The notes under the pieces were generated by a model, which saw only the letters and a list, made by a program, of their open reading frames with translations, was not told the origin of the DNA and did not search any database. A DNA stretch of 64,000 nt from Thermocrinis minervae. Its GTDB lineage: Bacteria; Aquificota; Aquificia; Aquificales; Aquificaceae. Location of the stretch: assembly GCF_900142435.1 (NCBI RefSeq), contig NZ_LT670846.1, positions 1,144,750 to 1,208,749 on the forward strand. The letters run 5' to 3'. Shown in pieces: positions 36,715 through 43,443 of the stretch. Position 1 is the stretch's first letter; the number at the start of each line of letters is the position of its first letter. A program made the position numbers and the translations under genes.

Positions 36715-37643
36715 TGGACCTATCTGTAGAGCTCTTTGGTGTGAGGTTCAAGAATCCCGTTTGGGTGGCATCGGGTACCTTTGGGTACGGACTTGAGGCC
36801 ATGGAGATATATGACATATCCCAGCTTGGAGCTGTAGTTACCAAAGGCATATCACTAAAGCCAAGAGAAGGCAATCCACCGGAGAGGATAGCAGAGACGC
36901 CTTGCGGTATGCTCAACTCCATTGGTCTGCAAAATCCTGGCGTAGAGGGCTTCCTGAAGAAGATATACCCACACATAGAGAAGGTGAACACCCACTTTAT
37001 AGTCAACGTATTCGGAGAAACAGAAGAAGAGTACCTAGAAGTATGCCTAGCATTAGAATCCGCACATAAGGTAGTGGCCTACGAACTGAATGTCTCATGC
37101 CCTAACGTAAAAAAGGGTGGCATGCTCTTCGGACATGACAAGGCAGTCCTAGGTAGACTCATAGACAGGATAAAGTCACACGTTAAAAAGCCTGTTTTGG
37201 TAAAGCTTTCTCCCAACGTGGATAACATAAAGGAGTACGCAAGAGTATGCCTAGAAAACGGTGCGGATGGCCTCGTAGCCATAAATACCCTAGTGGGTAT
37301 GAAGATAGATATAAAGGCTCAAAGGCCAGAGCTTTCTACATACAAGGGTGGTCTTTCTGGACCTGCCATACTTCCCATAGCCGTCAGGATGGTGTGGGAG
37401 GTTTACGAAGAAGTAGGATCTTACATACCCGTGATAGGTGTGGGTGGTATATACGATACAGATTCGGCATTGCAACACATCCTTGCGGGTGCCAGCGCTG
37501 TGCAGGTAGGAACAGCTAACTTCTTTGATCCAACAGCTCCACTCAAGATAATAAAAGGGATAGAGGAATACTTGAAGGAGAGGTCCTTAGAGAGCTTTAC
37601 CAAGCTCGTGGGCAGAGCTCATGGCTTAAGAGTAACCCCATGA
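36714..37643 (+). CDS. pyrD: Dihydroorotate dehydrogenase, class 1B type
   Basis: It oxidises dihydroorotate to orotate in pyrimidine synthesis, using FMN. The 309-residue TIM barrel has [28 protein letters not shown], and the active-site cysteine of [11 protein letters not shown] (class 1 enzymes use Cys as base). [19 protein letters not shown] follows. Class 1B enzymes pair with PyrK, which passes electrons to NAD; pyrK is not seen here. It sits between trpE and a glycosyltransferase with overlapping codons on both sides. Confidence 0.93.
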
Positions 37644-38425
37644 AGGTTTCTGTGATAGTCACTACATACAACAACCCAGACTACCTTATGAGGGTTTTGG
37701 AGAGTCTTGCTTACCAAAAGGTACTTCCCTACGAAGTGATCGTAGCAGATGATGGCTCCACTGAGGATACAGCTTTGGCTGTTAGGGACTTTTCAAGAAG
37801 GGCTCCCTTTGTGGTCAAGCATGTCTGGCACGATGATCTTGGTTTTAGGGCGGCGAAGATAAGGAACGAAGGAATAAAGGTATCAGAAGGGGATTACATA
37901 ATAGTCTTGGACGGTGACTGTGTAGTAAACAAACACTTTGTAGAGGATCACATGAAGTTAGCACAAAAGGGTTTCTTTGTCCAAGGTAAGAGGGTGCTAC
38001 TGTCAAAAGAACTTTCAAGTACCTTTACGTACCGTCAGGCCAACTCCCTTACCTTCCTATTAAAACACCTGAAACATATCACGAATGCACACCACATATT
38101 CCATCTTCCCATCCTTCCTGCCTTTTCAAACAAAAACCTCAAGGGTATAAAAAGCTGTAACATGTCCTTCTGGAGGGAGGATCTTATAGCTGTTAACGGC
38201 TTTAACGAAGAGTTTGTCGGCTGGGGAAGAGAAGACAGCGAGCTAGCAGTAAGGCTGTTTAAGTACGGACTCAAGAAGAAGGTCCATCCCTTCATGGCCG
38301 TATGCTTTCACCTTTGGCATCCAGAGAACTCAAGGGAAAGCCTAAGCAGAAACGACGAGCTTTTAAGGATGGCTATACAGTCTGAAGAGTATGTCTGCAA
38401 AAAAGGCATAGTCAAGCTGCCTTAA
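37640..38425 (+). CDS. Family 2 glycosyltransferase
   Basis: This 261-residue soluble GT2 has [36 protein letters not shown] and the metal-binding VLDGDCVV (DGD in place of DxD). Its C-terminal segment [14 protein letters not shown] resembles the galactosyltransferase-like domain. The ATG overlaps the pyrD stop (ATGA). I infer that it adds a sugar in the glycoconjugate pathway encoded by the next three genes, but donor and acceptor cannot be read. Confidence 0.88.
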
Positions 38426-38464: not shown

Positions 38465-39175
38465 ATGGAAGTTTTAGTAGAACTCCATGACGTTTGTCCT
38501 TTTTACTTTGAGGAACTTGTAAGAGCCTTTAAACTTCTAGAGTCTTCTAACGTAAAGAAGTTTTCTCTGCTTGTAATACCCAACTTCCTAGAAAAGTATC
38601 CCATATGCAGCCATGAAAGATTCTTAAGGGCCATAAAGGATCTAAAACAGGAGGTAGTTTTGCACGGTTACACGCATAGCTCCAGGATAAGGTTTAGGGA
38701 CCTTCCCTTTACATACAGGGAAGGAGAGTTTGGAGGGCTATCCTACGAAGAAACGTACCAAAGGATCTACATGGCTCTAGAGCTTTTGGATGCCTGCAGC
38801 ATAAAAAGCAAAACTTTCGTACCACCTGCGTGGATTTCAAACCCACACATTGAGAACATACTTAGAGACCTCGGTCTCAGGTTCCTTGGACTTAGAAACC
38901 GTATAGTAGACCTTCAGAAAGCCATCGGCCTGCCTTCTCCCTCTCTCACTTTTTCCAACAGACCCATCCTATCTTACTTGAGCCTTAAGCTTATGCCTGG
39001 ACTTTTGAACTTGACGAAGAACTACAGGCTTTTGCGCCTTGCCATACACATGAAAGACATGAGAGACAAAAGAAAGGTAGCCATGTGGCGCTTAATACTT
39101 AGGAGGTTAAAAAACAGGAGGTTTGTAAGCTATGAGGAAACGTTTGGCTCGTGCGGACTTGCACCTTCATTCTAA
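38465..39175 (+). CDS. DUF2334 polysaccharide-deacetylase-like protein
   Basis: This 236-residue protein fits the DUF2334 branch of the NodB/CE4 deacetylase fold. The acidic position is in LVELHDVCPF, the metal-binding HxxxH in VVLHGYTHSS, and there is a later FVPPAWISN loop. An N- or O-deacetylase acting on a glycolipid or polysaccharide intermediate is inferred from its place among glycosyltransferases. No signal peptide is visible, so it would act in the cytosol. It overlaps the next gene by 44 bases. Confidence 0.75.
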   Translation: MEVLVELHDVCPFYFEELVRAFKLLESSNVKKFSLLVIPNFLEKYPICSHERFLRAIKDLKQEVVLHGYTHSSRIRFRDLPFTYREGEFGGLSYEETYQRIYMALELLDACSIKSKTFVPPAWISNPHIENILRDLGLRFLGLRNRIVDLQKAIGLPSPSLTFSNRPILSYLSLKLMPGLLNLTKNYRLLRLAIHMKDMRDKRKVAMWRLILRRLKNRRFVSYEETFGSCGLAPSF

Positions 39176-41375
39176 GGCTTCCAACCTGCCAGGTGGGTGG
39201 TTTAGCGCCCTCATCAACTGCCCAGAGAGCTACGCAGAACCTAAGGAGATTTACAACAGACTAAAGCAAAGGGGAATGACCTTCGTGACCATAACGGACC
39301 ATAACACTATAGATGGTGTCCTTGAAATAGCACACCTGCCTGACGTGTTCATAAGTTGTGAGTACACAGTAAGCTTCCCAGAGGACAAGTCAAAGGTACA
39401 CATCCTGGTGTACGGCATAGACGAATACACGCACAGGGAACTCCTCGAGCTCAGGAACAATGTGTACGAGTTTGTTAAATATCTAAAAGAAAAGCACATA
39501 GCCCACAGTCTGGCTCACCCCCTGTACAGCGTGCAAGAGACTAAGATCACCCCAGAGCTTGTGGAGAAGTTTATACTCCTTTTTGACAACTGGGAGATAG
39601 TAAACGGAACCAGAGGAGACTACTCACAAAGGTACGAAGAGTGGATAGCTAAAACTTACGATGGCTGGCACAAGATCTGGCACCTTGCTGAAAAGCACAA
39701 GATAGAACCACTCAGAATAAGACCCAACATAGCCTTCACGGCGGGTTCTGACGACCACGGCGGTATGGACGTGGGAAGAACATACACGGCATGCCCAGCT
39801 GACACAGTTGAAGAGTTCCTAAACTGTCTTAGGGAAGGTAAGACAGAGGTTTATACACAACCCCTTGGTGAAGAAAGGCTCCTGAACATGACCCTGCGCG
39901 TCTTTTACATGCACATAAGGGATCGCATACCCAAGGAAGAAAGTGAGCTAAAGAATATATTAGATCAAGTTTTTTACGTATCTAACAACCCTCTCGTGGA
40001 GCTGCTGCTTAGTAGTACTTTCAAGGTGGATAGAAGCCTCTTGCTGAAGGAGATAATAAAACGTCTACCCTTTATGGTAGTCCATAGACTTGTAAAAGAG
40101 CCCAGCCTTACCAACCTGGGAGCCCTGGTAGCAGCCATTGGCCTGCAAACCTTCTATGGCAGCTTGGTATACATGAGGAAGGAAGAAGAAAGTAACATGC
40201 AGTCAATATCCAGCCTTATGGGATTTACAACTGAGCAGAGCAGAAGATTGGCTTATATAACAGACACTTACTTTGAGATAAACGGTGTAGCAAGAACAGC
40301 TAGGATAGTTAGAGACCTATCCATCAAACATGGCCTCCCCGTGGACGTTATCACTGTGCATGACAAGCCTGGTAAGGAAGAAAACCTCATATTTCTAAAG
40401 TCCTACCTTGAGTTTCCGCTTCCCTACTACCAAGAGCTAAAGGTCAGGGTTCCCTCCTTTGTAGATGTACTTGACCTTCTTAAGAACTATAGCCACGTGC
40501 ACGTAGCTACTCCGTCAGCTTTAGGTATCCTTGCAACTATCTCTGCCAAGATCTTAGGCTTGAAGACCAGCACTACCTTCCACACGGATATACCATCATA
40601 CGTGGAGAAGTACACGGAGAGCCTATCTGCAGGTCAGAGGACATGGACACTGCTTACCATGTTTATGAATCTCTTTGACAAGGTGTATGTACCATCTGAA
40701 AAGTACAGAAGCATACTCGTGCAGAAGGGTGTAAAGGAAGAAAAGCTCAGACTCTTATACAGGGGAGTTGATAGAGGGCTCTTCAGCCCATCAAAGAAGA
40801 AACAGGACTACTGGAAAAGGAAGCTAGGAATAGAGGGCAAGGTAATACTTTACGTGGGCAGACTGGCGAAGGAGAAAAACTTAGACCTTCTGCTGCATGT
40901 GGCCAAGAAGCTATCAAACTACAACTTTGTATTGGTGGGCGACGGGCCGTACAAGGAACAAATTCTTAAGACAAAGCTCAGCAACGTACATCTAACCGGT
41001 TACCTGGTAGGTGAAGAGTTGGCCACAGCTTACGCCAGCTCTTACATCTTTGTGTTTCCTTCCCACACAGACACCTACGGACAGGTAGTCTTGGAAGCTC
41101 TGGCCTGCGGTCTTCCCGTTGTAGCCTTAAAAGGTTCCGCATCTTCCGAACATATACAGGACTACCACAACGGCTTGCTGGCTGAAGGGCCCGAGGACCT
41201 AGTGAAGAAGGTGGAGCTGCTTCTCATGAATGAAGACTTGAGAGATACCCTCTCTAGAGGAGCCCTCGAGTACATCAACAGTCTTGACTTAGAACAGACA
41301 TACCTGAGCTTTATAAACAGCATAATGGAGGATGAGCTCTATGAAAGTGTTGGCTGTAGCTCCCTACTTTCATAG
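39132..41375 (+). CDS. PHP-domain / GT4 glycosyltransferase fusion
   Basis: This 747-residue protein joins two enzymes. Residues 8-250 form a PHP metal hydrolase with ADLHLHSKA, TITDHNTIDG, AHSLAHPLY and AGSDDHGGMDVG, all ligand motifs intact. Residues ~375-735 form a GT4 transferase: YITDTYFEINGVARTA, TTFHTDIPSYV, YRGVDRGLFSP, ILYVGRLAKEKNLDLLL, and FPSHTDTYGQVVLEALACGLPVV. That last segment resembles lipid-directed enzymes such as SqdX and PimB types. About 120 residues between the domains are not assigned. A bifunctional phosphatase/transferase is inferred. Confidence 0.85.
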   Translation: MRKRLARADLHLHSKASNLPGGWFSALINCPESYAEPKEIYNRLKQRGMTFVTITDHNTIDGVLEIAHLPDVFISCEYTVSFPEDKSKVHILVYGIDEYTHRELLELRNNVYEFVKYLKEKHIAHSLAHPLYSVQETKITPELVEKFILLFDNWEIVNGTRGDYSQRYEEWIAKTYDGWHKIWHLAEKHKIEPLRIRPNIAFTAGSDDHGGMDVGRTYTACPADTVEEFLNCLREGKTEVYTQPLGEERLLNMTLRVFYMHIRDRIPKEESELKNILDQVFYVSNNPLVELLLSSTFKVDRSLLLKEIIKRLPFMVVHRLVKEPSLTNLGALVAAIGLQTFYGSLVYMRKEEESNMQSISSLMGFTTEQSRRLAYITDTYFEINGVARTARIVRDLSIKHGLPVDVITVHDKPGKEENLIFLKSYLEFPLPYYQELKVRVPSFVDVLDLLKNYSHVHVATPSALGILATISAKILGLKTSTTFHTDIPSYVEKYTESLSAGQRTWTLLTMFMNLFDKVYVPSEKYRSILVQKGVKEEKLRLLYRGVDRGLFSPSKKKQDYWKRKLGIEGKVILYVGRLAKEKNLDLLLHVAKKLSNYNFVLVGDGPYKEQILKTKLSNVHLTGYLVGEELATAYASSYIFVFPSHTDTYGQVVLEALACGLPVVALKGSASSEHIQDYHNGLLAEGPEDLVKKVELLLMNEDLRDTLSRGALEYINSLDLEQTYLSFINSIMEDELYESVGCSSLLS

Positions 41376-42453
41376 AAAAAGTGGCGGCATAAGAAGGTAC
41401 ATCCTAAGAAGGATAAAACAACTCAAAGACATACAGCAGGTACTTGTCATACCAGGAAAGCAAAAGAGGGTTTACCATATGGACCATGTCAAAGTGTACG
41501 AAGTCCCCTCTTTTCCCATACCACTGACAGGAGGCTACAGGTTTTTCAACAACCTAAAAGACGTAAAGGAGGTAATAAGCTTAGAAGAGCCGGATATAGT
41601 AGAGTTGCATGGAACCTACCTCATAGCTCCGTACATAGTTGGAGAAGGTTACAGGCTTGTCATCTTCTACCACTCAGACGCCGAGAAGGAGCTAAAGCTC
41701 TTATACATGCCTCAGATAATAAGAAACAAGCTTATGAAGTCTGTGATAAATGCCCTCAAGTGTGCCGACGCTGTCTTGGTACCAAGCCAGAAGTACCTAA
41801 ACATACTAAAGGAATGGGGTGTTGAAAAAGTTCACCTTGTACCTTTAGGTGTTGACTGTGATACCTTCTCACCTTCTGCCAGAGACCCATACTTTGATAA
41901 GCTCTTAGGGGTAGACCCACACAGGACCATAAAGCTCCTCTACGTAGGAAGGCTCTCTAAGGACAAGAACATAGATACTCTACTTGAACTTTTAGACTTC
42001 TTAAACCCAAGACTCTTTTCCATGGTGGTAGTAGGAGCCGGGCCCCTTAGCTCCACGATCGAGAAGGAACAAAAAAGGAGGACAAACCTCTTCTATATGG
42101 GTCACATAAGCTCAGAGGAAGAGCTGGCCAAAATATACGCAAGCTGTGATATCTTTGTAAGTGCTTCCGAGTACGAGACCTTTTGCTTTTCCTTCGTGGA
42201 AGCACAGGCCAGCGGTCTTATAGTGTGTGCCTTCGACCTTAACTTAGAGACTCAACTCATCAAAGAGACCCTTTCCAGAGACTTTACAGCCCAAGGACTT
42301 GCCCATACCGTTTACAGAGCAGCTGATCTTCTCTCGCCAGGTTTGAGAGGATACCTTCACATAAAAACAAAAGAGCTCTTCCGTTGGGAAAAGAGCTTTT
42401 CAAAGCTCCTAGAAGTGTACGAAGTATTAACAGGATTACGCCAAAATTTATAA
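41341..42453 (+). CDS. Family 4 glycosyltransferase
   Basis: This ~370-residue GT-B enzyme begins MKVLAVAPYFHRKSGGIRRY. It has VELHGTYLIAPYIV, VPLGVDCDTFSP, LLYVGRLSKDKNIDTLL, and an E-x7-E motif in SEYETFCFSFVEAQASG. It is the last gene of the pyrD-linked glycoconjugate group. ATG 41341 is used because GGAGG at 41328-41332 has good spacing; an in-frame ATG three codons earlier overlaps that site. The sugar is unknown. Confidence 0.9.
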   Translation: MKVLAVAPYFHRKSGGIRRYILRRIKQLKDIQQVLVIPGKQKRVYHMDHVKVYEVPSFPIPLTGGYRFFNNLKDVKEVISLEEPDIVELHGTYLIAPYIVGEGYRLVIFYHSDAEKELKLLYMPQIIRNKLMKSVINALKCADAVLVPSQKYLNILKEWGVEKVHLVPLGVDCDTFSPSARDPYFDKLLGVDPHRTIKLLYVGRLSKDKNIDTLLELLDFLNPRLFSMVVVGAGPLSSTIEKEQKRRTNLFYMGHISSEEELAKIYASCDIFVSASEYETFCFSFVEAQASGLIVCAFDLNLETQLIKETLSRDFTAQGLAHTVYRAADLLSPGLRGYLHIKTKELFRWEKSFSKLLEVYEVLTGLRQNL

Positions 42454-42570
42454 AAAAATACTTACTACTTATATGGTTATGTAGTAAACAGCTATTATAA
42501 ACCGTACTTATGCATTAATAACGAGAATTTAATTGACCTTAGGGCACCTGTGAATAGAATAATGAATGCT
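42454..42570 (+). promoter_or_regulatory. sox operon upstream region with inverted repeat and promoter
   Basis: This 117-base AT-rich gap holds a sigma-70-like promoter: TTGACC (42533-42538), 16 bases, then TAGAAT (42555-42560), 10 bases before the ATG at 42571. It is the only clear -35/-10 pair I could place. Further upstream, TTACTAC (42462-42468) and GTAGTAA (42481-42487) form a 7-base perfect inverted repeat spaced by 12 bases, a possible regulator site for sulfur control. Confidence 0.55.
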
Positions 42571-42978
42571 ATGAAGAGCCTGCTACTAAGCCTGCTTCTT
42601 TGCCTTTTTGCCTTTGCATCAAACTGGTACTCTGACGTTTCTAAAGGTATCGACATTGCAAAGAAGGAAAACAAACTAGTCCTCTTTTACGTGTACTCAA
42701 AGCATTGTCCTTACTGTAAGTACATGGAGGAGTTTGTCCTCTCAGATCCAGATGTGGATCAGAAATTAAGGGAATACGTAGTGGTGGCCGTAGACGTATC
42801 CTCAGACATGGGTCAGGAACTGGCAAAAAAGTACGGAGTAGTTGGTGTACCGTCTTTCATCTTCTACGACCCATCAAAGGATGTTATCATCTCCAAGAGG
42901 TTTGGTTCTATGTATAAAAGGGATTTTTTAAACATGCTTACTAATGTGTGCAAGCTCAGTCAGAAAAAAACCTGTTAG
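42571..42978 (+). CDS. soxW: Periplasmic thioredoxin-like protein (SoxW-like)
   Basis: The ~135-residue protein has a signal peptide (MKSLLLSLLLCLFAFAS) and a thioredoxin fold with active site SKHCPYCKYME and the cis-proline loop VVGVPSFIFYD. SoxW proteins keep the SoxYZ carrier or its partners reduced. This assignment rests on position directly before soxY and on export; a general periplasmic disulfide reductase is an alternative. ATG 42571 is chosen over GTG 42550 and ATG 42562 because the -10 hexamer covers those codons. Confidence 0.8.
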   Translation: MKSLLLSLLLCLFAFASNWYSDVSKGIDIAKKENKLVLFYVYSKHCPYCKYMEEFVLSDPDVDQKLREYVVVAVDVSSDMGQELAKKYGVVGVPSFIFYDPSKDVIISKRFGSMYKRDFLNMLTNVCKLSQKKTC

Positions 42979-42990
42979 GAGGTATAGAAA

Positions 42991-43443
42991 ATGGATAGGA
43001 GAAAGTTCCTGATGTTGTCAGCTTTAGGCGCTGGAATGCTTATGCTTTCACCCACGCTACTTGGTACCTCTTACGGTGCTGTGCCAGAGAAAGCACTAGA
43101 GGTGATAAAGGAAAAGGTGGGAGTACCTCTTGAGCAGATCAAGGAAAGCCCAGAGGTAACCCTCAAGGCACCCACCATAGCCGAAACTCCTACAGCCATC
43201 CCCATAGAGGTGGAGTCTACTATACCCGTTGAAAAGGTGGAAAAGCTCTGGATAATAGTGGATGGAAATCCAAACCCATGGATAGCTGACCTTACCTTTA
43301 CACCTCAGAGCGGAAGGGTGTGGTTTGCCACGAGGATAAAGATGGCCCAAAGCTCCAACGTAAGGGCCATACTCAAACTCAAAGACGGTTCTTATGTGAT
43401 GGCCGTCAAAGAGGTTAAGGTAACGGCCGGCGGTTGCGGATGA
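42991..43443 (+). CDS. soxY: Sulfur carrier subunit SoxY
   Basis: SoxY carries sulfur intermediates on a C-terminal cysteine while thiosulfate is oxidised. The 150-residue precursor has a Tat signal (MDRRKFLMLSALGAG), a linker rich in P, T and E, and a conserved core ending TAGGCG. Canonical SoxY ends GGCGG; this one stops one glycine short, but keeps the reactive cysteine. TTAGGAGGT at 42976-42984 serves as the ribosome site. It pairs with SoxZ, encoded next. Confidence 0.95.
   Translation: MDRRKFLMLSALGAGMLMLSPTLLGTSYGAVPEKALEVIKEKVGVPLEQIKESPEVTLKAPTIAETPTAIPIEVESTIPVEKVEKLWIIVDGNPNPWIADLTFTPQSGRVWFATRIKMAQSSNVRAILKLKDGSYVMAVKEVKVTAGGCG

Follow-up and report, generated by a model that had tools for sequence, protein, structure and literature searches.

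A PHP hydrolase fused to a GT4 glycosyltransferase in Thermocrinis minervae is probably a bifunctional enzyme of glycolipid synthesis

Thermocrinis minervae encodes a 747-residue protein in which an N-terminal PHP metallohydrolase domain is joined to a C-terminal GT4 glycosyltransferase (ATG-initiated open reading frame at 39132–41375, plus strand, in a 64,000-nucleotide window of contig NZ_LT670846.1). The protein is probably a bifunctional, membrane-associated enzyme of glycolipid synthesis, and its sequence and genomic setting make it likely to belong to a membrane glycolipid pathway of the amino-sugar type. In the full reading that we prefer, to which we assign a probability of about 0.4, the PHP domain would act first and the GT4 domain second, and the products of the two adjoining genes would add GlcNAc and deacetylate it. 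What is new is this combination, a PHP hydrolase fused into a pathway of the glucosaminyl-lipid type, and not the single domains: the PHP–GT4 architecture is likely to be visible in domain databases, and no papers on such fusions were found in the open-licence literature.

Domain architecture of the fusion protein

That an intact PHP domain is joined to an intact GT4, as the original prediction had it, was borne out by domain matches, structural modelling, conserved ligands and homologues of the same architecture in many phyla. Pfam returned PHP_C at 24.1 bits (above its cut-off), PHP below threshold and strong matches to the GT4 N- and C-domains. A full-length AlphaFold2 model was confident (pLDDT 91.6, pTM 0.88) and poor only in the last 12 residues.

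The PHP domain spans residues ~5–245 (39144–39866, plus strand) and was delimited by Pfam PHP_C, NCBIfam NF038032, an AlphaFold2 model of the domain alone (pLDDT 90), PDB fold matches and ligand conservation. The four metal motifs first picked out by eye are real and N-terminal (HLH at residues 11–13, DHN at 56–58, HP at 129–130 and SDDHGG at 206–211), with E77 and H90 completing the usual ligand set; the HxH, DH, E/H, H, HP and DxH motifs and the distorted TIM barrel place the domain in the PHP superfamily. Far from varying freely, the ligands are near-invariant in 93 full-length homologues from Aquificota, Thermodesulfobacteriota, Campylobacterota, Desulfuromonadales, Verrucomicrobiota and other groups: H13, D56, H57, H129, D207 and H209 are each kept in 93/93, H11 in 92/93, H90 in 89/93 and E77 in 82/93, where it is otherwise Q.

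This constancy bears on a further possibility, which we consider improbable: that the PHP domain is regulatory, or is a hydrolase other than a phosphatase (such as an amidase of the CehA/McbA kind), and that the GT4 alone sets the pathway step. The top NCBIfam PHP model is indeed the CehA/McbA metallohydrolase family (NF038032), but the match, over residues 7–254, reaches only 35.7 bits against an 80-bit cut-off and so leaves the protein outside that family, as does the 37-bit match of a Geobacter homologue. A ligand set kept almost without exception argues against a purely regulatory domain.

Compared with the PDB, the PHP model was closest to 3e38 (Z 17.8), followed by PsfC (7rty, 17.6), TM0559 (2anu, 17.1), 2yb1 (15.3) and RNase AM (about 15), with histidinol phosphatase reaching only about 8. 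The earlier comparison with histidinol phosphatases therefore appears loose, the fold being far nearer to that of RNase AM, AMP-phosphatase and PsfC (Z 15–18 versus about 8), and no HisK family match to the fusion was found in Pfam or NCBIfam. No PDB sequence matched the PHP profile at E 0.01, and the kinship is visible only by fold comparison. RNase AM, 2yb1 (from Chromobacterium), TM0559, BVU_3505 and PsfC share the fold of the N-terminal domain (Z about 15–18); to our knowledge, all of them lack a fused glycosyltransferase and no activity on lipids has been described for any. PHP enzymes of known activity act on nucleotides, on sugar or amino-alcohol phosphates, or on proteins, and we know of none that acts on a phospholipid.

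The residues between the two domains (about 246–371) had been described as a stretch of ~120 unassigned residues; the length holds, but since the full-length model is confident throughout, residues ~247–362 (39870–40217, plus strand) are better described as a folded module of five helices, predicted with high confidence. Within a 37-residue helix of this linker lies a hydrophobic stretch, near residues 329–347, and hydropathy peaks at the matching position in many, though not all, homologues (about 1.3–1.9 on the Kyte–Doolittle scale, borderline for a transmembrane helix). Such a recurrent but borderline stretch makes membrane association of the fusion plausible. Mean identity across homologues is 24% in the linker, 49% in the PHP domain and 43% in the GT4.

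The GT4 domain (residues ~372–732; 40245–41327, plus strand) is complete, as had been supposed, on the evidence of Pfam PF13439 and PF00534, NCBIfam NF053787, invariant residues, the model and PDB fold matches. It has the GT-B fold, the catalytic His, the R/K donor-site pair and the E/D-X7-E motif of the family. H484, R577, K582 and E655 are each conserved in 93/93 homologues, and the motif reads D647-X7-E655, its first residue being D or E among homologues. The nearest PDB folds are MshA, PglA, HepE, BshA and PimB', with MshA the best, in a near tie, for the full model. In all four fusions scanned, the best NCBIfam model for the fused GT4 was the GlcNAc-PG synthase (NF053787); the Thermocrinis domain scores 113 bits against an equivalog cut-off of 480, and so resembles GpgS without being assigned to it.

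Distribution and constancy of the fusion

The PHP–GT4 fusion is old and widespread. A single-sequence scan of genome contigs had found no relatives, because its peptide patterns are poorly conserved; a profile scan then found them, and the same architecture recurs in many phyla, far beyond chance. The profile scan of the collection was limited to the 80 top-scoring loci, a selection that favours full-length matches, and two genome surveys were made without that bias. One covered the order of Geobacter argillaceus, where the PHP-domain profile matched 49 of 117 genomes, and the other the verrucomicrobial phylum, where it matched 34 of 289. Almost all matches in both surveys lay in open frames of about 640–1030 residues, the exceptions being one 560-residue frame, one gene cut by contig ends and one stop-bearing frame. 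The two halves are thus not separate genes elsewhere, as they might have been, but are essentially always fused in both surveys.

In a tree, the fused GT4 domains formed one clade that did not include the GpgS-like neighbours (support for the fused rows alone, 93/54; 91% of bootstraps), and distances between PHP halves track those between GT4 halves (correlation 0.91). The tree is consistent with a single origin of the fusion, without strong support at its base. In one closed genome (L042, 7297–9610) a frameshift at about residue 190, within the PHP domain, breaks the gene in two, which marks either a pseudogene or a sequencing error.

Gene neighbourhood and the amino-sugar step

The fusion gene lies between two genes on the same strand and overlaps each by 44 nt. 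Upstream is a DUF2334 gene for a GpgD-like N-acetylglucosaminyl-lipid deacetylase (38465–39175; PF10096, 8.9e-25; NF053788, 4.3e-28), and downstream a GpgS-like GT4 glycosyltransferase (41332–42453; NF053787, 1.8e-51 over its full length) that is a conserved neighbour. The upstream protein belongs to the DUF2334 family itself, with the GlcNAc-PG deacetylase GpgD as its top NCBIfam model (NF053788; 98 bits; equivalog cut-off 280), while the top model for the downstream GT4 is the GlcNAc-PG synthase GpgS (NF053787; 175 bits; cut-off 480). In Pseudomonas aeruginosa, GpgS makes GlcNAc-PG and GpgD deacetylates it to GlcN-PG, as established with mutants and by expression in Escherichia coli (PMC12713373). 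The Thermocrinis unit resembles gpgSDF in pairing a GpgS-like GT4 with a GpgD-like DUF2334 protein in one gene unit and differs in that PHP–GT4 takes the middle place; no gene for the flippase GpgF was seen in the three-gene unit. As the NCBIfam scores fall far below the equivalog cut-offs, we claim the chemistry of the neighbours only in kind, as predicted transfer of GlcNAc to a lipid followed by deacetylation, with an acceptor that may not be PG. Apart from the linker, the proteins are soluble-looking, and they come from thermophiles.

The order DUF2334, PHP–GT4, GT4 is kept in 15/15 Aquificota loci examined, with varying outer flanks, and in the same compact form in Thermodesulfobacteriota. 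PHP–GT4 and DUF2334 occur in an identical set of 44 of the 136 Aquificota genomes (11 of 30 genera). The gene immediately upstream of the fusion in Chthoniobacterales is DUF2334, and the GpgS-like gene is absent there. Campylobacterota carry the fusion without DUF2334 and with a different GT4 downstream, and the Desulfuromonadales genomes tested have the fusion and lack DUF2334, except for one weak match. The amino-sugar step is therefore not intrinsic to the fusion, since the Geobacter and Campylobacterota proteins occur without the deacetylase.

Several further features of these neighbourhoods were recorded. At three Campylobacterota loci a second GT4 gene stands directly behind the fusion; the two that were placed in the tree (L073 and L075) group next to the fused GT4 clade, in contrast to the GpgS-like gene found in Aquificota. 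Three draft genomes have frameshifts or stops in genes of the three-gene unit, and in one of these (L127) all three are affected; such decay was considered and not counted, because drafts may hold sequencing errors. In Desulfuromonadales, the fusion often lies near phosphatidylserine decarboxylase-like and LGT-like genes. At ten of these loci there is a recurrent set beside it, comprising an ~800-residue protein that neither Pfam nor NCBIfam matched, one resembling phosphatidylserine decarboxylase and, mostly, an LGT-domain protein, which together look like a separate lipid gene set. PPK1 adjoins the fusion at nine loci, some of them also with Ppx/GppA or CHAD. This adjacency, in part of the Desulfuromonadales, is a possible link to phosphate storage; as a sign of phosphate metabolism, the polyphosphate genes (PPK1, Ppx and CHAD) were too patchy and varied in arrangement to serve as main evidence.

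In the Thermocrinis window, a GT2 glycosyltransferase gene (37640–38425) stops some 40 bases short of the DUF2334 gene and was left out of the unit because it was not found beside the unit in relatives. Downstream, at 42550–43443, genes for a thioredoxin-like protein and for a SoxY-like protein with GGCG at its end suggest, as judged by eye, that sulfur-oxidation genes begin there.

Order of the two reactions and the likely product

We favour a pathway in which the PHP domain would hydrolyse the phosphoester of a membrane phospholipid to give a lipid acceptor such as diacylglycerol (or would strip a phosphate from the acceptor), and the GT4 domain would glycosylate that acceptor from a nucleotide sugar. 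The role of the GpgS-like enzyme would be to attach GlcNAc to the product of the fusion (or to PG or PI); deacetylation by the DUF2334 enzyme would then leave a positively charged glucosaminyl lipid. Together the three genes could yield an aminohexosyl-hexosyl-DAG, which has the composition of the HexSD lipid of Clostridioides difficile and of G-NG-DAG; in Geobacter relatives without DUF2334, the product of the fusion by itself would be a simple glycolipid. That Geobacter has the fusion and no deacetylase fits a reaction that either precedes the amino-sugar step or does not depend on it.

Two successive steps remain the natural reading of such a fusion, as originally proposed; the order proposed with it, a glycosyl phosphate that is then dephosphorylated, lacks support as stated and survives as a rival. 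A membrane lipid is indicated by the neighbourhood, by the co-occurrence with DUF2334 and by the relatedness of the GT4 to GlcNAc-PG synthase, and with such a substrate hydrolysis first is at least as likely. In its lipid form the rival has the GT4 add GlcNAc or a hexose to a phosphorylated acceptor (phosphatidylglycerophosphate or phosphatidylinositol phosphate), after which the PHP domain would remove the phosphate and DUF2334 deacetylate. MshA, the structure that the full model matches best, belongs to mycothiol synthesis, in which its product loses first a phosphate and then an acetyl group; PHP enzymes are commonly phosphomonoesterases, and the nearest folds include 2yb1, a structure determined with Mn, AMP and phosphate. 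The rank of MshA may, however, reflect no more than a common GT4 fold, given that the matches are near-tied, and this order leaves the deacetylase-free Geobacter fusion unexplained. Nor can the fusion be a general PGP or PIP phosphatase when so few Aquificota genomes have it. We judge this order unlikely, if worth keeping in view. Two thirds of Aquificota are without the gene, and for that reason we did not retain a role as the phosphatase of the phylum for PGP or PIP, or one in aminopentanetetrol lipids.

A soluble product can be weighed in the same way. Bifunctional transferase/phosphatase fusions are well known, for example sucrose-phosphate and mannosyl-3-phosphoglycerate synthase/phosphatases, and sucrose-phosphate synthases are among the structural matches, so the fusion could make a phosphorylated disaccharide or glycoside and dephosphorylate it as a thermoprotectant. 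The partner genes encode lipid enzymes, which makes a soluble product less likely; the linker holds a hydrophobic stretch, and the fusion occurs in Geobacter, Verrucomicrobiota and Campylobacterota and not in thermophiles alone. We regard this explanation as very improbable.

For the favoured order the closest precedent is the pair PlcP and Agt, of which PlcP is a metallophosphoesterase with a fold other than PHP. PlcP cuts PG or PE to DAG and Agt, a GT4, glycosylates the DAG, the two being encoded by neighbouring genes of one operon (PMC4796936, PMC8231724). Both systems place a metal-dependent phosphohydrolase and a GT4 in succession and encode them together; they differ in that PlcP and Agt are two Pho-regulated proteins, whereas here there is one protein, for which no sign of Pho regulation was found. 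Upstream of 50 genes outside Aquificota, Pho boxes were not in excess (5.32 mismatches versus 5.48 expected) by an E. coli-type consensus, from which those of these phyla may differ, and a role in phosphate starvation is thus not supported. By analogy with this pair, we tentatively propose that the PHP domain frees the lipid acceptor from a phospholipid and that the GT4 then glycosylates it.

The later steps have a counterpart in C. difficile, where HexS is thought to add an N-acetylhexose to a monohexosyl lipid and HexD to deacetylate the product, giving an aminohexosyl-hexosyl lipid (PMC10128005). HexSDF is alike in that a transferase and a deacetylase produce an amino-sugar glycolipid on hexosyl-diradylglycerol; it is different in that HexS is annotated as of the MGDG-synthase type, has no PHP domain and works on a first hexose added by other enzymes. 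Among environmental lipids, G-NG-DAG has been reported from hot-spring streamers that also contain Aquificae, its source being listed as 'unknown thermophilic bacteria' (PMC4318418), and related hexosaminyl lipids, including NG-G-P diethers, have been reported (PMC7044123). Inositol and hexose are equal in mass, and by our own reasoning the NG-G-P diethers would therefore also fit glucosaminyl-PI. We treat the links of G-NG-DAG and the NG-G-P lipids to the three-gene unit as leads drawn from analogy.

A bolder extension, which we put forward as speculative and rather unlikely, is that the PHP domain founds a lipid-acting branch of its superfamily (phospholipase C-like or a lipid phosphatase), that the fusion turns phospholipid into glycolipid within a single protein, and that with its neighbours it makes the hexosaminyl-hexosyl lipids of Aquificae-rich streamers. 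If true, this would be the first membrane-lipid role for PHP enzymes and would add a second, single-protein route from phospholipid to glycolipid beside that of PlcP and Agt. It would also give a genetic handle on hot-spring streamer amino-glycolipids that lack known producers.
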